Of a DNA stretch of 60,667 bases, positions 32,520-41,351 are shown piece by piece; within the stretch, counting starts at the first letter, position 1, and the number at the start of each line of letters is the position of its first letter. Made by a program: the position numbers and the translations under genes. Under the pieces are notes generated by a model, which made no database searches, was not told the origin of the DNA, and saw only the letters and a list, made by a program, of their open reading frames with translations. This stretch comes from Acidimicrobiia bacterium (GTDB taxonomy: Bacteria; Actinomycetota; Acidimicrobiia; Acidimicrobiales; SKKL01): assembly GCA_016649895.1 (NCBI GenBank), contig JAENWR010000009.1, positions 1-60,667 on the forward strand, written 5' to 3'.

Positions 32520-32593
32520 GGGGACGCATCGTGTCACGGGCGCACGGAAATCCTCCATGCCATCATGGTGCCGGCAACTGTTATCACGGCGCG

Positions 32594-32833
32594 ATGATCC
32601 GCACCCAGATCTCCATGACCGAGCAACAGGCCGAGGGCCTCCGCCGTCTGGCTGCGCTGCGCCGCAGGTCGCAGGCGGCCTTGCTGCGAGACGCGCTCGA
32701 CTCGCTGCTCGGCGACGACGGCCGAGTGGACGCGGTCGAGCGGGCTCGAAGTGCCATCGGCGCGTTCCGGTCGGGAACCGCCACCACGAGCGTCGATCAC
32801 GACGCGGTGCTCGACGACGCGTTCTCATCGTGA
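32594..32833 (+). CDS. Ribbon-helix-helix antitoxin
   Basis: A 79-residue antitoxin. The RHH DNA-binding part is at the N-terminus (IRTQISMTEQQAEGLRRLAA, then RRRSQAALLRDALDSLL). A toxin-binding tail ends VDHDAVLDDAFSS. It overlaps the PIN toxin gene start (GTGA). Likely represses its own promoter as a dimer. ATG 32594 directly precedes the RHH strand. It is a different family from the AbrB antitoxin at 4418. Confidence 0.85.
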   Translation: MIRTQISMTEQQAEGLRRLAALRRRSQAALLRDALDSLLGDDGRVDAVERARSAIGAFRSGTATTSVDHDAVLDDAFSS

Positions 32834-33240
32834 CCGACGTCTTCGTCGACACCTCTGCGCTCTACGCGGCGCTCGATGCCGACGACGAGCACCATGGCGA
32901 GGCGTCCGAGGGTTGGGCCCGACTTCTGGATCGCATCGCCACCGGAGGTCTCACGGCTCACACCCACAGCGGCGTCGTCGTCGAGGTCACAGCACTCGTC
33001 CAGCGGCGCCTCGGGCTCGACGCCGCCCGAGCCCTCCACGACCGCCTTCTACCCGTCGTCGAGATCAGGTGGCTCGACCAGCGCCTCCACGAACGGGCGC
33101 TGGCTGCGCTCCTCGCCGCCGGACGTCGCGATGCGAGCCTCGTCGACTGGACCTCGTTCGAGCTGATGCGGGAGCTGAGGATCGACCAGGCGTTCGCGTT
33201 CGATGACGACTTCGCCGGCCAGGGCTTCGTCAGCTGGTAG
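32830..33240 (+). CDS. PIN-domain toxin (VapC-like)
   Basis: A 136-residue Mg-dependent ribonuclease. Acidic site residues appear in VFVDTSALYAALDADD, in the central VVVEVTAL, in ASLVDWTSFELMREL, and near the end in AFAFDDDFAGQGF. This is the usual PIN spacing. Coupled to the RHH antitoxin by a four-base overlap, so it is made only with it. Target RNA unknown. Confidence 0.87.
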   Translation: MTDVFVDTSALYAALDADDEHHGEASEGWARLLDRIATGGLTAHTHSGVVVEVTALVQRRLGLDAARALHDRLLPVVEIRWLDQRLHERALAALLAAGRRDASLVDWTSFELMRELRIDQAFAFDDDFAGQGFVSW

Positions 33241-33270
33241 GTCGGGGTACCCGGTGGGTAGGCCTCGTCC

Positions 33271-33795
33271 ATGCGACCGATCCGCACCTTCGGCCACGGC
33301 ACCCTCGCTGCCGACGAGATCGTCGAGGTGCTGCGCACTGGTGGCATCGAGGTCATCGCCGACGTGCGCCGCTACCCGGGCAGCCGTCGCCACCCCCACG
33401 TCGCACGCGAGGCGATGGAGGTGTGGCTGCCGGAGGCGGGCATCGAGTACCGGTGGATCCCCGAGCTCGGTGGACGTCGTCGGCCCCGTCCCGATTCGCC
33501 GCACGTGGCATGGCGCGTCGCGCAGTTCCGTGCCTACGCCGACCACATGGAGAGCGAGGAGTTCGCTGCTGGTCTGACGACCCTCGCCGACATGGCGGCC
33601 GATCGGCAGGTGGCGGTGATGTGCTCGGAGGCGGTGTGGTGGCGGTGCCACCGTCGACTGGTCGCCGACCACCTGGTCCTCGTCGAGCGCCGAGAGGTCG
33701 AGCACCTCTTCCACGATGGGCGACTCGTGCCCCACGACCCGTTGGCCGAAGCGCGCGAGGACGAGGGCCGAGTCGTCTACGACCTCGTGGGGTAG
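33271..33795 (+). CDS. DUF488 family protein
   Basis: A 174-residue cytosolic protein of the DUF488 family. Marks are TFGHGTLAADEIVEVLR, VIADVRRYPGSRRHPH, and AVMCSEAVWWRCHRRLVADH, the family's conserved Cys plus CHR motif. Biochemical function is unknown. It lies 30 bases after the PIN toxin and converges on the methyltransferase gene with one base between them. Confidence 0.87.
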   Translation: MRPIRTFGHGTLAADEIVEVLRTGGIEVIADVRRYPGSRRHPHVAREAMEVWLPEAGIEYRWIPELGGRRRPRPDSPHVAWRVAQFRAYADHMESEEFAAGLTTLADMAADRQVAVMCSEAVWWRCHRRLVADHLVLVERREVEHLFHDGRLVPHDPLAEAREDEGRVVYDLVG

Positions 33796-33796
33796 C

Positions 33797-34885
33797 TCAG
33801 GGCTTCAGCTCGAGGACCATGTTGAACGGTGTCTCGGCCACCCTGCGCACCGATGAGAAGCCGGCCGCGGTGGCGACATCTCGTAGGCGGGCCTCGCCGG
33901 CCTGAGCGCCGAGCGCCGCCCCAACGTCCTGGGAGAGCGAGCCCGGCGTGCAGAGGAGCGTCGAGAAGCCGTAGTAGGCGGCGCCCACGGGGTTGAGGTT
34001 CTCCTCGATCGTGTCACCGGCCATGGGCTCGACGAGCATGACGGAGCCGGTCGGTGACAGCTCCGCTCGGATGTGGGCCAGCGACCCGACGGGGTCGCCC
34101 ATGTCGTGGAGGCAGTCGAAGAAGCACACGAGGTCGAAGGGCCCGCGGATCTCGCGAGCGGGACGCGCTTCGAACGAGATGTGATCGACGACTCCCGCGG
34201 CGGCGGCCCGCTCGCGAGCGGTCACGATCGAGCCCTCGTGGGCGTCGAAGCCGGTGAAGGTCGACGCCGGGAAGGCTTCGGCCATCAGGATCGTCGATGC
34301 CCCCAAGCCGCAGCCGACGTCGGCGACGCGGGCCCCGGCGGTCAGTTGCGCGTGCGCCCCGTCGAGCGCCGGCAGCCACGTCCCGACCAGGTTGGCCAGG
34401 TAGCCGGGACGGAAGAACCGCTCGCATCCCTCGAACAGGTCGTGGTGGTGCTCGCCCCATCCCACGCCCTCACCGGTGCGGAACGCATCGGCCAGGCGGT
34501 CGGTGGAGTGCACCGAGGCCAGCGCGGTCTCGAACGCGCCGATGACGCAGGCCGGGCTGGTCTCATCGGTGAGCACGACTGCGTGCTCGTCGGACAGGGC
34601 GAAGCGCCCGTCACCCTCGTAGGAGATGTAGCCGGTGGCCGCTTGTGCCGACAGCCACTCCCGCACGTAGCGCTCGACGGTTCCCGTGCGGGTGGCGAGC
34701 TCTGCCGCGGTGAGGGGTCCGGCGCCGGCCATGGCTCGGTACAGCCCGAGCCGGTCGCCGAGCACGATCATCGACCCGCCGAGGACGGTGCCGACGTCGG
34801 CCACGGCGCGGTGCACGAACGCCATGAGGGTCTCCTCGTCGATGGCCGGGGTGGGGGCGGAGGGGTTGGCGGTGGTCGCAGTCAT
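33797..34885 (-). CDS. SAM-dependent methyltransferase with N-terminal winged helix
   Basis: A 362-residue class I methyltransferase. Residues about 15-110 form a winged-helix dimerisation part (AFVHRAVADVGTVLGGSMIV, then LATRTGTVERYVREWL), as in small-molecule O-methyltransferases. The SAM site is VADVGCGLGASTILMAEAFP, followed by FTGFDAHEGSI and DLVCFFDCLHDMGDP. Substrate unknown. It is transcribed away from a TetR regulator with a palindrome between them, so it belongs to that locus. Confidence 0.87.
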   Translation of the reverse strand: MTATTANPSAPTPAIDEETLMAFVHRAVADVGTVLGGSMIVLGDRLGLYRAMAGAGPLTAAELATRTGTVERYVREWLSAQAATGYISYEGDGRFALSDEHAVVLTDETSPACVIGAFETALASVHSTDRLADAFRTGEGVGWGEHHHDLFEGCERFFRPGYLANLVGTWLPALDGAHAQLTAGARVADVGCGLGASTILMAEAFPASTFTGFDAHEGSIVTARERAAAAGVVDHISFEARPAREIRGPFDLVCFFDCLHDMGDPVGSLAHIRAELSPTGSVMLVEPMAGDTIEENLNPVGAAYYGFSTLLCTPGSLSQDVGAALGAQAGEARLRDVATAAGFSSVRRVAETPFNMVLELKP

Positions 34886-34903
34886 GGTGGATCTCGCTTT
34901 CGT

Positions 34904-34995
34904 TCGGTCGCTCGACCGACAGCGTGCTCGCAGTGATCCATCCTTGTCAAGGGGCAAAACCTGTGGCACGGTGAGGCAGCCGATCGACCGACCGA
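34904..34995. promoter_or_regulatory. Candidate TetR operators with repeated CGACCGA motifs
   Basis: A perfect 16-bp palindrome, TCGGTCG-CT-CGACCGA (34904-34919), lies 19 bases upstream of the methyltransferase ATG. Nearer to tetR the half-site CGACCGA occurs twice, overlapping, at 34985-34991 and 34989-34995. One TetR dimer could control both divergent transcripts. Confidence 0.55.
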
Positions 34996-35013
34996 GGGGT
35001 AGAGCAGGATCCG

Positions 35014-35640
35014 ATGGCCACCGCCGAGACCGTTACCGAGACCCGCACAGCGATCATCGACGCCGCCCGCTCCCTGCTGCGCACCGATGGCCACACCGGG
35101 ATCTCCACCCGGAAGGTCGCCGAAGCCGCCGGCGTTCCGCTCAGCCAGCTCCACTACCACTTCGGTTCGAAGGAGGGATTGTTGCTCGCAGTCCTCGCCG
35201 CCGAGAACGAGCGCCTCCTCGACCGCCAGGCCCGCATGTACTCCTCGGACCGACCCCTGTGGCAGCGCTACGAGCAGGCATGCGACTTCCTCGACGAGGA
35301 CGTCGAGTCCGGTTATGTGCGCGTCCTGCAGGAGATGATCGCCCAGGGCTGGACCAACTCTGCGGTCGGGGCCGCGGTCCGCGACCTCCTCACCGGCTGG
35401 TACACCCTGCTGACCGATGTCGCCGAGGAGGCCGAGGCGCGGTTCGGCAGCCTCGGGCCGTTCACGGCTCGCGAACTGGCCACCCTCATCGGCAACGCGT
35501 TCATGGGCTCCGAGGCCCTCATCCTCCTCGGCTTCGACCGCGACGAGCTGCCCGTGCGCGCTGCGCTGCGCCGGGTCGGCATCCTCATCCGCCAACTAGA
35601 GGACGGCCAAGGAGGCCCCGATGCGCGCCCGACGACCTGA
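35014..35640 (+). CDS. TetR-family regulator
   Basis: A 208-residue repressor. The helix-turn-helix is at residues about 10-60 (ETRTAIIDAARSLLRTDGHT, then STRKVAEAAGVPLSQLHYHF with the family's YHF signature). The rest is the ligand-binding helical core. Its 3' end overlaps the start of the fusion gene by 20 bases, so they are one transcript. The divergent methyltransferase and the palindromes between them suggest a three-gene unit switched on by a small ligand. Confidence 0.9.
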   Translation: MATAETVTETRTAIIDAARSLLRTDGHTGISTRKVAEAAGVPLSQLHYHFGSKEGLLLAVLAAENERLLDRQARMYSSDRPLWQRYEQACDFLDEDVESGYVRVLQEMIAQGWTNSAVGAAVRDLLTGWYTLLTDVAEEAEARFGSLGPFTARELATLIGNAFMGSEALILLGFDRDELPVRAALRRVGILIRQLEDGQGGPDARPTT

Positions 35641-37738
35641 CCGAGCCAGCACCACCGAGCGAGACGGCGTACGGCTCGCCTACGAGGTCCACGGCGACGA
35701 CCACGACCCCACCGTCCTGCTCATGCCGACGTGGTCGATCCTCCACTCGCGCTTCTGGAAGGCCCAGGTGCCCTACCTCTCGCGGCACTACCGCGTCGTC
35801 ACCTTCGACGGACGCGGGTCCGGGAGGTCAGGGCGTCCGGTTGGCCCCGCCGCCTACGTCGAGCACCACTACGCCGACGACGCCGCGGCCGTCATGGAGG
35901 CCACGGGCACCGAGCGTGCGGTGGTGGTCGGCCTGTCGTGCGGCGCCACATACGGAGTTCACCTCGCCGCCCGCCACCCCGATCGAGTGGCTGCGCTGAT
36001 CGCCATCGGGCCGGCGTGCGGCTTCTCGATGAGCGCTCCCGAACGAGGGCAGTACGCGTGGGACGCCGATCTCGACACCACGGAGGGGTGGGCGAAGTAC
36101 AACCGGAGGTACTGGCTGGAGGGCGACTACGACGACTTCCTCCGCTTCTTCTTCTCGAGGATGTTCACCGAGCCCCACTCGACCAAGCAGATCGAGGACG
36201 CAGTGGGGTGGGGGCACGAGATCGACCCGTCCACCCTGGCCGACACCACTGAAGCCCGCCTTGGATGCGAGGGCGTCACCTGCGCTCCGGTCGAGGCGGT
36301 GTGCGCGCAGGTGCGCTGCCCGGTCGTGGTCGTGCACGGCGACGACGACGGCATTCAGCCCCACGCGGTCGGCGAGCGGTTGGCCGAGCTCACCGGCGGC
36401 TCCCTGACCACCATCGGTGGCGGAGGCCACGGCCTCCCTTCACGCAACCCCGTGTTCATCAACCGACTGATCCGCGACGTGGTCGAGCGCACCCGACCTG
36501 TCGCGCCGCGCACCCGCACCACGTGGACGCGCGCGCTTGCCCGCCCGAGGCGCGCCCTGTACCTGTCGTCGGCCATCGGGCTCGGCCACGCCCGGCGCGA
36601 CGTCGCCATCGCCCAGGAGCTTCGCCGCCACCACCCCGACCTCCAGGTCGACTGGCTGGCCCAGCACCCCGTCACCACCGTCCTCGAAGGGGCCGGCGAG
36701 TGCGTCCATCCGGCGTCGGCCCACCTGGCCAGCGAGTCGGCCCACATCGAGGACGAGTGCGCTGAACACGACCTCCACGCGTTCCAGGCCATCCGGCGCA
36801 TGGACGAGATCCTCGTCGCCAACTTCATGGTCTTCCACGATGTGGTCGAGGCCGGGCACTACGACCTCGTGATCGCCGACGAGGCCTGGGAGGTCGACCA
36901 CTTCCTCCACGAGAACCCCGAGCTCAAGCGCTTCGCATACGCCTGGATGACCGACTTCGTCGGGTGGCTCCCGATGCCCGACGGCGGTGAGGACGAGGCG
37001 CGCCTGACAGCTGACTACAACGCCGAGATGATCGAGCAGAGGGCCCGGTTCGGCCGCCTGCGCGATCGCTCGATCTTCGTTGGCGACCCCGACGACGTCG
37101 TACCCGACAGCTTCGGCCCGGGGCTGCCGGACATCGCGGAGTGGACGCGCTCGCAGTTCGACTTCGCCGGGTACGTCACGGGATTCGAACCGGTCACCGA
37201 CCGGGAGGCACTGCGCGACGAGCTCGGGCTGCGTGCCGACGAGCGCCTCTGCGTCGTCACCGTCGGTGGCTCGGGTGTCGGCCAGCCGCTCCTGCACCGG
37301 ATCCTCGACGCCGTTCCCGCGGTGCGGCGCCACCTCCCCGAGGTCCGGTTCCTGGTCGCAGCCGGACCGCGCATCGACCCGGCGTCGCTCCCTCGCCGGC
37401 GTGGTGTCACGGTCCGGTCCTACATCCCCGACCTTCACCGGTACCTGGCGGCGTGCGACATCGCCATCGTCCAGGGCGGCCTCACCACGTGCATGGAGCT
37501 CACCGCCAACCGGCGTCCGTTCATCTACGTACCGCTCCGCCACCACTTCGAGCAGAACATCCACGTGCGCCACCGGCTCGAGCGGTACCGGGCCGGCCGC
37601 TGCCTGCCGTACGACGAGCTCGACGCCGACACCCTGGTGGCAGCGATGGTCGACGAGCTGCGCCGGCCGCTCGACTACCGGCCCGTGGCCACCGACGGGG
37701 CGGCACGCGCCGCTGAGCTGCTGGCGCCGCTGCTGTAG
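35621..37738 (+). CDS. Alpha/beta hydrolase fused to a MurG/UGT-type glycosyltransferase
   Basis: A 705-residue two-domain protein. Residues about 10-295 are an alpha/beta hydrolase with nucleophile Ser106 (GLSCG), acid around Asp242 (VVHGDDDGIQP) and His270 (GGGGHGL). Residues about 308-705 are a GT-B glycosyltransferase: LYLSSAIGLGHARRDVAIAQ at the start, VTVGGSGVGQPLLHRIL, and the donor-site segment QGGLTTCMELTANRRPF near the C-terminus. The two parts join without a break or overlap in the frame. It may hydrolyse an ester and glycosylate the product, or act on a sugar ester. Substrate is unknown. The ATG lies inside the tetR end. Confidence 0.85.
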   Translation: MRARRPDRASTTERDGVRLAYEVHGDDHDPTVLLMPTWSILHSRFWKAQVPYLSRHYRVVTFDGRGSGRSGRPVGPAAYVEHHYADDAAAVMEATGTERAVVVGLSCGATYGVHLAARHPDRVAALIAIGPACGFSMSAPERGQYAWDADLDTTEGWAKYNRRYWLEGDYDDFLRFFFSRMFTEPHSTKQIEDAVGWGHEIDPSTLADTTEARLGCEGVTCAPVEAVCAQVRCPVVVVHGDDDGIQPHAVGERLAELTGGSLTTIGGGGHGLPSRNPVFINRLIRDVVERTRPVAPRTRTTWTRALARPRRALYLSSAIGLGHARRDVAIAQELRRHHPDLQVDWLAQHPVTTVLEGAGECVHPASAHLASESAHIEDECAEHDLHAFQAIRRMDEILVANFMVFHDVVEAGHYDLVIADEAWEVDHFLHENPELKRFAYAWMTDFVGWLPMPDGGEDEARLTADYNAEMIEQRARFGRLRDRSIFVGDPDDVVPDSFGPGLPDIAEWTRSQFDFAGYVTGFEPVTDREALRDELGLRADERLCVVTVGGSGVGQPLLHRILDAVPAVRRHLPEVRFLVAAGPRIDPASLPRRRGVTVRSYIPDLHRYLAACDIAIVQGGLTTCMELTANRRPFIYVPLRHHFEQNIHVRHRLERYRAGRCLPYDELDADTLVAAMVDELRRPLDYRPVATDGAARAAELLAPLL

Positions 37739-37807
37739 ACGGCCGGGGGGAGAACGGGCGTTCGGCCACGGTGCCGCACAGCCATGGCGATGTGAGGAGG
37801 CCATCCG

Positions 37808-39601
37808 CTACCCCATCCCGGCGGCCAGTGCACCGACCTGACGGGTTCCCTTGGCTGTGAGCCGATACGCCATGGCTGGGTCAAACGGGTTGCTCCTCGT
37901 CGGCTCGATCAGCTGCTGATCCAGTGCAGCGTCGATCCAGCGTTTCCGGGATGTCGGAGACTTGAGCCCCAGGGCTTTGCCGATCTCGGTGGCCCGCAGT
38001 TCTGTGGTCGGGCTCGCGGCGATCGCGGCGAGCAGCTCGGGAACCCGATCCGTGCCGCGCCTTCCACGCTGCGTACTGTCAGCGCCGGCGGCTTCGGGCC
38101 GTGTGGCGAGGAACCACGCCGGGGCCATCCGGCTCCTCGAACGGGTGAGTAGCCCGGCGGTCTCAAGATCGTGGAGAACGACGGCAGCGTCTTCGACCGA
38201 AGCTCCTGCGAGAGCGCGAGCGATGAACCGGGCGTCAACCGGCACATCAGCCCATGGGTTGAGAACGGTCTCATCCCCCAGACCTGCGACTCGGTGGATG
38301 ACGCTCAGCGCACGGTGCTGGTCGGCGCTGAGCGTGACGTTCGCGGCGTCGGCAAGCGCCTTTGCCGGGGCCGGGTCGATCGAGCGTCGTGCCATCGTCA
38401 CCTGGAACGAGGTGGGCAGGTCGGCGAACATCGCTGGCAGCGTTCCCGCAGCGCGACACGCCCGGTCGGCGAGCGCGATGCCGACGTTCTGCCCTTCGAC
38501 GATCCGGGCACCAGCCGGGGTGCGCAGCTGCTCACAGATGCGCACGAGCGTGAGGTTTCGTAGCCCGTTCCGAGCGCCGAGGCCGAGCAGCGCCGGGTCG
38601 TTGGACACGTGGATACCGCCAGGGCTCGTGACGACAACAGCGTCGTGGGACAGCTCGATGAGCCCCGCCGTGTCGTCGGCGGCGAAGCTCCGGTGGACGA
38701 GCGCGTTCGAGATGATCTCTCGCAGTGCTTCGAGCGGAACATCGGTGTCGTCGAACAGCCCGCCGTGACGGAACACCTGGACCGTCCCCATTTGCTGGCG
38801 AAGCCAGCTGAGGGCGTCGTCGAGCAGCTCACCGATGGTTCCTTCCAGGTGCTCACCGGAGTGGCGTGTGCCTGGCGGGTCCGCTGGCGTGGGGTGCCGG
38901 CGCACCGTCATCCGCGCTGACGGCGAGTACCGCTGCGGTAGTCGGCCCAACGCGAGGAGCCCCGCCAACGTCAACGATCGGTTGTCGGTCACACCGGACG
39001 CCTCGAGGATCTGCGCATCAGCCAAGCCCGCCGAGCGTTCTGACCTCGTCCGCTGCTGTGCGCAGAACTCCGCGGCTGCTGCCGCGTCGAGGACAGCACC
39101 GTCGGGTGCCGGTTTCGCGCTGTGGTCGTGGCCGGAACGTACGGCGAGCATGGCGTCGACCTCAGAGCTACGGAGGCGCTGGTCGGAGTCACCAACGCGG
39201 ATGAACGACGAGGCGTGCGGACCCGAAAGTCGCCGATGGCAGGGCCGCTGGGTCCGAGGTAGTGATTCGATCTCGGCGACGACCACTGCACCTTCGGGTA
39301 GTTGGATGGTGGCGATCACTGGCCTCAGCGGTGGTTCGAGCTCTGCGCACTCGCTTTGGAGGTTCGAGGTTGTTCGGCCAGGGTCGTCGACCCCGGTGAC
39401 TGTGAACTGTCCGTCGCCTTCGTCGACGCCGAGCAGCAGGGTGCCGCCCACACCGTTCGCGAACGCCGACAGCGTCTCCCACGTCGTCTGCGGCAGTGCC
39501 GTTCGGGCACGCTTGGCTTCCACGAGCTGGGTGTCGGATCCGACACCCCTCAGCTCTTCGAGCATCGCGGTCAACGCTGCCTCGTCCAACATGGTCTTCA
39601 C
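37808..39601 (-). CDS. AlbA_2/Schlafen-type ATP-binding protein, putative regulator or defence factor
   Basis: A 597-residue protein. AlbA_2 domain at about 5-150 (LVEAKRARTALPQTTWETLS, then FANGVGGTLLLGVDEGDG). The central part leads into a GHKL-type ATPase motif at 291-306 (EALREIISNALVHRSF) and VVVTSPGGIHVSNDP. The C-terminal part is winged-helix-like (LRATEIGKALGLKSPTSRKR). This layout is seen in predicted transcription regulators and in some phage-defence proteins. GTG 39601 or ATG 39592 are both possible starts. The promoter region upstream contains six copies of a 12-bp repeat, unlike any other gene here. Confidence 0.82.
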   Translation of the reverse strand: MKTMLDEAALTAMLEELRGVGSDTQLVEAKRARTALPQTTWETLSAFANGVGGTLLLGVDEGDGQFTVTGVDDPGRTTSNLQSECAELEPPLRPVIATIQLPEGAVVVAEIESLPRTQRPCHRRLSGPHASSFIRVGDSDQRLRSSEVDAMLAVRSGHDHSAKPAPDGAVLDAAAAAEFCAQQRTRSERSAGLADAQILEASGVTDNRSLTLAGLLALGRLPQRYSPSARMTVRRHPTPADPPGTRHSGEHLEGTIGELLDDALSWLRQQMGTVQVFRHGGLFDDTDVPLEALREIISNALVHRSFAADDTAGLIELSHDAVVVTSPGGIHVSNDPALLGLGARNGLRNLTLVRICEQLRTPAGARIVEGQNVGIALADRACRAAGTLPAMFADLPTSFQVTMARRSIDPAPAKALADAANVTLSADQHRALSVIHRVAGLGDETVLNPWADVPVDARFIARALAGASVEDAAVVLHDLETAGLLTRSRSRMAPAWFLATRPEAAGADSTQRGRRGTDRVPELLAAIAASPTTELRATEIGKALGLKSPTSRKRWIDAALDQQLIEPTRSNPFDPAMAYRLTAKGTRQVGALAAGMG

Positions 39602-39620
39602 CGTTCAGTCTGTGCGCCGT

Positions 39621-39758
39621 CCGAACCTTACATGGAGGGGAGGGTGTAAGGTTCGGGTGTAAGGCTCGGTAGAGGATCCAGGTATGCCGAGTTGGAAGGC
39701 CTTTTCCGAACCTTACACCTACCGGGCACGGGGTGTAAGGTTCGGGTGTAAGGTTCTC
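39621..39758. repeat. Two-module array of a 12-bp repeat (TGTAAGGTTCGG)
   Basis: Six copies lie between the AlbA_2 gene and metG. Module A: CCGAACCTTACA at 39621-39632 (inverted), TGTAAGGTTCGG at 39645-39656, TGTAAGGCTCGG at 39658-39669. Module B: inverted copy at 39706-39717, TGTAAGGTTCGG at 39734-39745, TGTAAGGTTCTC at 39747-39758. In each module the direct copies are 13 bp apart. This looks like a multi-site operator, probably for the adjacent AlbA_2 protein. Confidence 0.8.
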
Positions 39759-39768
39759 GCTTCAAGCA

Positions 39769-39793
39769 GGTTGGGCACGTGCTCAGCCCAACC
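39769..39793. other. Hairpin/inverted repeat upstream of metG
   Basis: GGTTGGGC (39769-39776) pairs perfectly with GCCCAACC (39786-39793) around a 9-nt loop. It lies between the repeat array and the metG -10 box, with no T-run. It may be an operator or shield metG from read-through. Confidence 0.35.
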
Positions 39794-39807
39794 ATGGGCA
39801 CCCCTCG

Positions 39808-39813
39808 TAAGCT
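39808..39813 (+). promoter_or_regulatory. Candidate -10 box (TAAGCT) of metG
   Basis: TAAGCT ends eight bases before the metG ATG at 39822, consistent with a leaderless transcript. It lies 50 bases beyond the last copy of the 12-bp repeat. Confidence 0.5.
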
Positions 39814-39821
39814 GGCGATCT

Positions 39822-41351
39822 ATGCCCGATCGCTTCTTCGTGACCACGCCGATCTACTACGTGAACGACGCGCCCCACATCGGGCACGCCTACACCACGG
39901 TCATCGCCGACGCGGTGGCGCGGTGGCACCGCCTGAAGGGCGATGAGGTCTTCTTCCTCACCGGCACCGACGAGCACGGACTCAAGGTGAAGCGCTCGGC
40001 CGACGAGGCCGGCGTCACCCCCATCGAGCAGGCCGACCTCAACTCGGCCCGGTTCCGCGAGGTGTGGGACTCGCTCGGCATCTCCTACGACGACTTCATC
40101 CGCACCACCGAACCTCGGCACCACCAGTCGGTGCAGGCACTCCTCCAGGCCGTCTACGACAACGGCTACATCGAGAAGGGCACCTACGAGGGGCTCTACT
40201 GCGTGTCGTGCGAGGCGTACTACAACGAGGACGACTTGGTCGACGGCAACTGCCCCATCCACGGCCGGCCCGTCGAGACGCTCCGCGAGGACAACTACTT
40301 CTTCAAGCTCTCGGCCTTCGCCGACCGCCTCGATGAGTGGCTCAGCTCCGACGAGGGTGCGGTCATCCCCGATGGCAAGCGCCGCGAGGCGCTCGGGCTG
40401 GTGCGCGGCGGCCTCGACGACGTGTCGATCACCCGCACCTCGCTCGACTGGGGCGTCACGGTCCCCTGGGATCCCGAGCACGTCTTCTACGTCTGGTACG
40501 ACGCGCTCATCAACTACGTCACCGCCATCGGCTACGGGGTTGACGACGAGCGCTTCGCCCGCTGGTGGCCCCACACCCTGCACCTCCTCGCCAAGGACAT
40601 CCTGCGGTTCCACTGCGTCTACTGGCCGGCGTTGCTCATGGCTGCGGGGGTCGAGCCGCTGCCGCGCTTCGCAGTGCACGGCTACCTGCTCCTCGGCGGG
40701 GAGAAGTTGTCGAAGACGGTGCACGGGCCGGCGCGGCTCACCGACATCGCTCCGGCGCGCCTCGTCGAGGACTTCGGCGTCGACGGCTTCCGCTACCACC
40801 TGTTGCGCGACACACCGTTCGGTCCCGACGGCGACTTCTCCTATGAGGGGATGGTCACCCGCTACAACTCCGACCTCGCCAACAACCTGGGCAACCTGTT
40901 CTCGCGGGTGGCGACGGTGGTGGCGAAGAAGTGCGGTGGCATCGGCCCGGCGCCGCGCCTCGACAGCCCGCTCGCCGAGGTCGTGGCCGGTGCGTACACC
41001 GACGCGGCCGCCGCGTGGGACGGCGTGGCTCCCTCCATCGCCATCGACGCCACCTGGCGGATCGTGCGCGAGACCAACGCCTACCTCGAGGCGAACGAGC
41101 CGTGGAAGTCCGATCCCGGACCCGAGGTCGACGCGGTCCTGGGCGACGCCGTCGAGGCGCTGCGGGCGGTGGCCATCCTCGCCTGCCCGGTCATCCCCAC
41201 CACGTGCGACGCGATCTGGGGGCGGCTCGGGCTCGAGGGCAGCCCGCGCGACCAGCGGGTGCCCGACGCCGTCGCCTGGGGCCAATACCCCGGGGGCCTG
41301 CCGGTGGTGAAGGGCGACGGGCTCTTCCCCCGCATCCAGTCGGCGGGCTGA
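39822..41351 (+). CDS. metG: Methionyl-tRNA synthetase
   Basis: Charges tRNA-Met; essential. The 509 residues have the HIGH motif in TPIYYVNDAPHIGHAYT, the connective-peptide region with CVSCEAYYNEDDLVDGNCP (zinc-type cysteines), and the KMSKS loop as GGEKLSKTVHG, where KLSKT replaces the usual residues. The anticodon-binding helical domain follows from about residue 360. There is no C-terminal EMAP-like dimerisation domain, as in mycobacterial MetG. ATG 39822 begins the conserved MPDRFFVTTPIYY. tatD follows two bases after the stop. Confidence 0.95.
   Translation: MPDRFFVTTPIYYVNDAPHIGHAYTTVIADAVARWHRLKGDEVFFLTGTDEHGLKVKRSADEAGVTPIEQADLNSARFREVWDSLGISYDDFIRTTEPRHHQSVQALLQAVYDNGYIEKGTYEGLYCVSCEAYYNEDDLVDGNCPIHGRPVETLREDNYFFKLSAFADRLDEWLSSDEGAVIPDGKRREALGLVRGGLDDVSITRTSLDWGVTVPWDPEHVFYVWYDALINYVTAIGYGVDDERFARWWPHTLHLLAKDILRFHCVYWPALLMAAGVEPLPRFAVHGYLLLGGEKLSKTVHGPARLTDIAPARLVEDFGVDGFRYHLLRDTPFGPDGDFSYEGMVTRYNSDLANNLGNLFSRVATVVAKKCGGIGPAPRLDSPLAEVVAGAYTDAAAAWDGVAPSIAIDATWRIVRETNAYLEANEPWKSDPGPEVDAVLGDAVEALRAVAILACPVIPTTCDAIWGRLGLEGSPRDQRVPDAVAWGQYPGGLPVVKGDGLFPRIQSAG

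Follow-up and report, generated by a model that had tools for sequence, protein, structure and literature searches.

Bacterial Schlafen proteins, which are related to the human antiviral Schlafens, have recently been proposed to act as anti-phage nucleases; how are the genes that encode them controlled? Our search of the open-access literature, with bioRxiv preprints outside its scope, returned nothing on the control of bacterial Schlafen genes and no report of promoter repeat arrays in the Schlafen family. Autoregulated operators of the toxin–antitoxin and restriction-controller kinds are well established, and in these a toxic gene limits itself through repeated half-sites at its promoter. 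Here, there is no separate antitoxin or controller gene, such that, by analogy, the enzyme-like protein itself would be the regulator, and there are 3–11 sites whose sequence is private to each locus.

Among described Schlafen-type systems, the closest in architecture come from a 2026 survey, the accessible portion of which describes Schlafen RNases that are fused to a minimal histidine kinase and a wHTH, are linked to BREX-type systems, and occur in at least 1017 taxa; that portion also refers to a preprint on anti-phage defence by bacterial Schlafens (PMC12839542; Taboada et al.). The domain order given there, AlbA_2, GHKL-type ATPase and wHTH, is that of the protein considered here, but our gene has no BREX genes adjoining it and stands alone with its own array, a feature of which that portion makes no mention (PMC12839542). 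The patchily distributed TrlG of Photorhabdus laumondii, which confers a temperature-dependent growth restriction at 36 C with growth arrest, likewise combines AlbA_2 with HATPase_c_4 (PMC7554251). Whereas TrlG sits in a three-gene operon with trlR and trlF, our gene has no such partners (PMC7554251); the gene at 35621-37738, a 705-aa fusion of an alpha/beta hydrolase with a GT28-type glycosyltransferase domain, is convergent to it, and metG is divergent. The best structural match is DIP2311 of Corynebacterium diphtheriae (PDB 3lmm; VIA-align Z 21.0, rmsd 7.8, 305 residues aligned; Foldseek E 1e-19), a protein of unknown function with 18% sequence identity. We know of no operator for DIP2311.

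The window analysed here is the whole 60,667-nucleotide stretch of an Acidimicrobiia bacterium genome. An earlier note, made from the sequence alone, had described six 12-bp copies within 138 bases, arranged in two similar modules and including two imperfect copies, and all of these were located as claimed (Table 1): four of the six copies of TGTAAGGTTCGG are exact, in each module an inverted copy precedes two direct copies spaced by 13 bp, and the whole array lies 20–157 bp upstream of the start codon of the Schlafen gene. The same note saw nothing similar elsewhere in the window. At ≤2 mismatches, the window contains seven matches to TGTAAGGTTCGG, six of them inside the array, and seven matches anywhere were reached by none of 100 dinucleotide shuffles of the window (mean 1.6); in the 350 bp before the gene, an 11-mer occurs six times, compared with at most twice in 40 shuffles. 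The 3.59-Mb genome assembly holds four exact copies, all in the array, and five scattered single copies with one mismatch. When any 12-mer is considered at ≤2 mismatches, six copies are also found in GC-rich coding DNA at other places in the window, and thus it is exactness, geometry and position, rather than mere copy count, that distinguish the array. No TGTAAGGTTCGG cluster was found in 30 relatives, among them a member of the same genus and two further members of the family, three of which carry one stray copy each. No sigma-70-like promoter is recognizable within the window array, so its overlap with a promoter is judged from position. Between the array and metG, at 39769-39793, there is also a perfect 8-bp inverted repeat, GGTTGGGC/GCCCAACC, with an unexceptional folding energy (z -0.84).

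Table 1. Coordinates of the features discussed, numbered from the first letter of the window.
Feature	Position	Strand	Remarks
Bacterial Schlafen gene	37808..39601	-	597 aa, GTG start
SLFN_AlbA_2 domain, residues 25-143	39173..39529	-	Pfam PF04326, E 2e-13
HATPase_c_4 / GHKL-type ATPase, residues 315-403 by Pfam	38393..38659	-	PF13749, E 1e-8
First winged-helix region, residues about 410-498	38108..38374	-	Predicted from secondary structure of model
Second winged helix (C-terminal), residues 517-597, MarR-like	37811..38053	-	VIA-align Z about 11-12 to MarR proteins
Operator-like array	39621..39758	.	Six TGTAAGGTTCGG copies, two modules (inverted, direct, direct)
Copy 1	39621..39632	-	Exact
Copy 2	39645..39656	+	Exact (GGTGTAAGGTTCGG)
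Copy 3	39658..39669	+	One mismatch (TGTAAGGCTCGG)
Copy 4	39706..39717	-	Exact
Copy 5	39734..39745	+	Exact
Copy 6	39747..39758	+	Last two bases differ (TGTAAGGTTCTC)
metG	39822..41351	+	Divergent neighbour; Pfam tRNA-synt_1g, E 1e-104; 86-87% identical in G001/G002
Segment absent from relative G002	32522..39801	.	About 7.3 kb; holds Schlafen gene and whole array
TetR-family gene	35014-35640		About 4 kb from array

The protein encoded directly behind the array scores well above the curated Pfam cut-offs for SLFN_AlbA_2 (PF04326; 51.3 bits versus 25.3) and HATPase_c_4 (PF13749, COG2865-type; 35.2 bits versus 26). A structure model (mean pLDDT 85.8) is composed of AlbA_2, a middle region, the ATPase and two winged helices; in other words, the AlbA_2 domain, GHKL-type ATPase and winged-helix tail that had been read from the sequence are all there, with the correction that the model has two winged helices instead of one. 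There is a weak Fic-like_C match at the C-terminal winged helix. Structure comparison also pairs the N-terminal part with 2kyy, an AlbA_2 domain, and with human SLFN11/SLFN14. The active site of SLFN13 is formed by the three carboxylates E205, E210 and D248 (PMC5862951), and a similar set is found here in D23, E28 and D60/E61: position 23 is acidic and E28 is kept in 98 of 98 homologues, with the same five-residue spacing as E205–E210 (PMC5862951), and residue 61 is E in 93 and D in 6 of 103 homologues, D60 being less conserved. Either D60 or E61 may be the counterpart of D248. In the ATPase, the N-box residues E295 and N299, just before the domain as called by Pfam, are invariant in 103 homologues; the window protein departs from its relatives at two positions, with S305 where D is usual and A321 where 101 of 103 have R. 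Nucleotide binding may therefore be altered, and ATP use by this particular protein is uncertain because S305 and A321 replace a near-universal acidic residue and arginine.

We infer that the window protein is an RNase used in defence. The suggestion of a phage-defence unit is plausible from what the accessible portion of the survey says of the same architecture (PMC12839542), although nothing in the window shows defence: the tested neighbours are a methyltransferase, a TetR, the hydrolase-glycosyltransferase and metG (Pfam), with no core defence gene of BREX or another known system among them, and the PADLOC hits to the protein itself are no more than weak pAgo/Aga matches. A second bacterial Schlafen is encoded in the same genome (L010, G000:C170; 33% identical), and its array, with GAAATGTAACC three times, differs from that of the window.

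Do other members of the family have arrays of their own? Homologues were gathered from whole genomes and genome contigs, and minus-strand loci were read in gene orientation. The 220 bp before each start codon were scanned with a motif finder that could place multiple sites on either strand, with 12 dinucleotide shuffles as the null, and an array was called when an upstream region beat all 12 shuffles of its own DNA. With near-duplicates removed, 79 of 103 homologues (77%) have their own repeat array directly upstream, compared with 29 of 186 controls (16%), for which the regions before other ORFs at the same loci were taken; the check that the earlier note had suggested, on AlbA_2 homologues of similar length, thus came out in its favour. 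In the full sets, arrays precede 80/102 first loci and 39/46 further loci, and the difference between homologues and controls is pronounced (Mann-Whitney p = 2e-26, full set). Single weak arrays are not to be trusted, since 16% of controls pass where 1 in 13 would be the nominal rate; strong arrays are plain by eye, and about a quarter of homologues have no significant array. For example, Frankia L079 has seven copies of CATACTAGCTA in 12-bp steps, Amycolatopsis L072, L076 and L077 have two direct and two inverted copies of the CATGCTCAC type, the array word of L113 is TCCTACAACC, and L129 has ten sites of the TTTAGAGAGA type; the arrays of L075, L114 and L129 comprise eight to eleven sites, and those of L079 and L096 are near-perfect tandems. 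The neighbours of the homologues have no gene family in common (at most 4/105), and we therefore assign the array to the Schlafen gene. The orientation of neighbours was left out of the evidence: ORF calls are unreliable in GC-rich DNA, and of 10 upstream ORFs tested, only 2 have a Pfam family.

The arrays also have a shared anatomy. Exact 8-mers recur at 11–12 bp in 11% and 18% of loci (controls, 0% and 2%) and at 19–22 bp in 10–17% of loci (controls, 1% or less), spacings of about one and two helical turns, and site density peaks about 40–120 bp before the start codon. Copies within one array differ on average by 2.8 of 12 bases, compared with 5.5 of 12 for the best match between loci with shifts allowed. 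In Amycolatopsis, a block of four sites is kept while the DNA upstream of the block diverges, and in Prauserella L121 every copy has changed in concert to CTTCGCCACTT. Such concerted change and block conservation are what would be expected as the trace of a DNA-binding protein that co-evolves with its sites.

The sites are, moreover, private to the Schlafen gene where this was examined. In 11 genomes examined, clustered sites were found only at the Schlafen gene. Four Amycolatopsis genomes (9–10 Mb) contain the tandem pair twice per genome at ≤2 mismatches, on opposite strands with 31 bp spacing, and spacing and contigs fit the two arms of the genome's own array; each of the 17 sites found in six coriobacterial-type genomes belongs to a cluster next to the Schlafen gene. 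The genome-wide scattering that had been named as a refutation is thus absent, with exact copies of the window repeat in the array only and clusters at Schlafen genes only. Repeated sites upstream of a gene, and private to that gene, are two of the marks of an autoregulatory multi-site operator, and both are present here.

Outside Actinomycetota, two Bacillota-type relatives have arrays: the L206 gene, on a Lactobacillus iners plasmid, is preceded by TAATCGTGAG triplets in 11-bp steps that recur about every 87 bp, and L202, on a gut contig, by eight copies 21 bp apart. By the same upstream motif test, L200 and L201 have no array, and four Pseudomonadota relatives (L203, L204, L205 and L208) have no significant array. 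Of these, L203 and L208 are embedded in type I RM/methylase operons with almost no upstream gap. L203 lies on a Pseudoalteromonas plasmid inside a type I RM operon and L208 on a Roseomonas plasmid beside DUF6079 and a DNA methyltransferase, and both are annotated as 'RNA-binding domain-containing protein'. These eight cases are too few for a rule. More distant AlbA_2 homologues of the same order (L002-L009, L011-L014) have no arrays upstream, and a search of viral contigs with patterns from the homologue alignment found no relatives.

With arrays of their own before most homologues, and clustered sites only at the Schlafen gene, the array is most likely a multi-site operator that is bound by the product of the gene it precedes. 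We consider it probable that the Schlafen protein binds the half-sites of this private operator cooperatively and regulates its own promoter, most likely by repression. The same two results, the enrichment over controls and the unscattered repeat, support the prediction of the earlier note that the array is a multi-site operator or DNA recognized by the adjacent protein. The model of the window protein has predicted DNA-binding folds, which fits the role of binder. That the Schlafen protein is the binder, and repression the effect, we infer as follows: the protein would form a multimer built around its GHKL ATPase part, and the multimer would bind the repeated half-sites cooperatively, over its own promoter zone. 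Repression would keep a potentially toxic Schlafen-type nuclease low and self-limited until a stimulus alters nucleotide state or occupancy.

Could the array instead serve metG? It does lie between divergent genes, and its nearest copy ends about 63 bp before the metG start; G001 and G002, however, have metG without the repeat, and we regard a metG control region as extremely unlikely. In G002, of the same family, 92 bp separate gluQ from metG, with neither the Schlafen gene nor the array between them, which speaks against the notion that metG control is the purpose of the array. Homology to G002 breaks off on the gluQ side at 32521 and is picked up again at 39806, past the array, so the array is part of the about 7.3 kb that G002 lacks, either by insertion here or by loss in G002. 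The metG-side homology ends at 39802-39806, and the -10-like TAAGCT/TAGGCT near the start is common to these genomes; metG is probably a bystander, although the array may have some effect on it. That hexamer, TAAGCT about 8 bp before the metG ATG (39809-39822), is conserved as TAGGCT in the relatives G001 and G002; it hints at a -10 element and at a metG transcript without a leader. The content of the gluQ–metG stretch (32522-39801) differs among G000, G001 and G002, which suggests a site of variable insertion next to an essential gene. Equally to be weighed is whether the repeats do anything: slippage can make short repeats, and L079 and L096 have near-perfect tandems, but non-functional tandem duplications, or repeats of another kind such as iterons, CRISPR-like repeats or transposon ends, are very unlikely given the mixture of direct and inverted copies, the conserved spacing, the footprint-like conservation in Amycolatopsis and the excess of arrays before homologues (77% versus 16% of controls). 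Moreover, Rfam gave no match at the array, and none of the annotated neighbours in the window is a gene for replication or transposition.

If the array is an operator, is the Schlafen protein its reader? Another regulator, for example a nearby TetR or MarR, could control the Schlafen gene, metG or both; the TetR-family gene is about 4 kb off, and TrlG of Photorhabdus is accompanied by TrlR, a separate small putative regulator (PMC7554251). Yet one host regulator common to the loci would be expected to leave one common motif, and arrays persist, locus-specific, among homologues whose neighbours have no regulator family in common, which makes this explanation quite improbable. A somewhat better claim, though one that we still think unlikely, belongs to a reading with the same binder and a different effect, in which the protein is an activator of its own gene, or the array is mainly a platform on which the nuclease docks and stays inactive, to be released when infection disturbs the DNA. 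For example, the 21-bp-unit array of L202 lies upstream of a recognizable promoter (TTGATT-17-TATAAT) rather than over it, where an activator or a docking site would be expected, and eight to eleven sites, as in L075, L114 and L129, are more than simple repression seems to need; at most loci, however, the sites lie 20–160 bp before the start codon and would cover the promoter.

For the self-bound operator, molecular questions follow; which domain would read the DNA? The winged helix was the candidate tried, and it predicts that motif similarity should track the C-terminal domain. Instead, motif similarity tracks the AlbA_2/ATPase half: among 70 non-redundant loci, its partial correlation with N-terminal-half identity, given the C-terminus, is r = 0.138 (0/300 permutations), compared with r = 0.001 (151/300 permutations) for C-terminus identity given the N-terminal half. 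L048 and L062, for example, have a common ACAAC core despite C-termini that are 23% identical. This correlation speaks mildly against the winged helix as the sole reader and is suggestive only, owing to kinship among the sequences, poor C-terminal alignments, the small effect and the fact that only five pairs combine similar C-termini with dissimilar N-termini. It is a rather doubtful proposition, but perhaps the AlbA_2/ATPase half reads the private repeat, with an independently evolved code in each member, and the array doubles as a dock on which the enzyme is kept inactive until infection disturbs it. If so, a nuclease module would recognize its own operator array.

Autoregulatory multi-site operators are already known; what appears new is that, within a Schlafen family, most members are preceded by an array that is private and specific to the locus. 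Such an operator array, found family-wide, offers a direct handle on the control of Schlafen genes. The dozens of naturally paired proteins and DNA sites could be used to find the domain that reads the DNA, and they could also be used to build gene switches that are mutually independent. Judged from the genomes compared here, bacterial Schlafens of this family probably govern the expression of their own genes by way of DNA switches private to each, since most relatives sit behind a repeated word that is their own and differs from the others.
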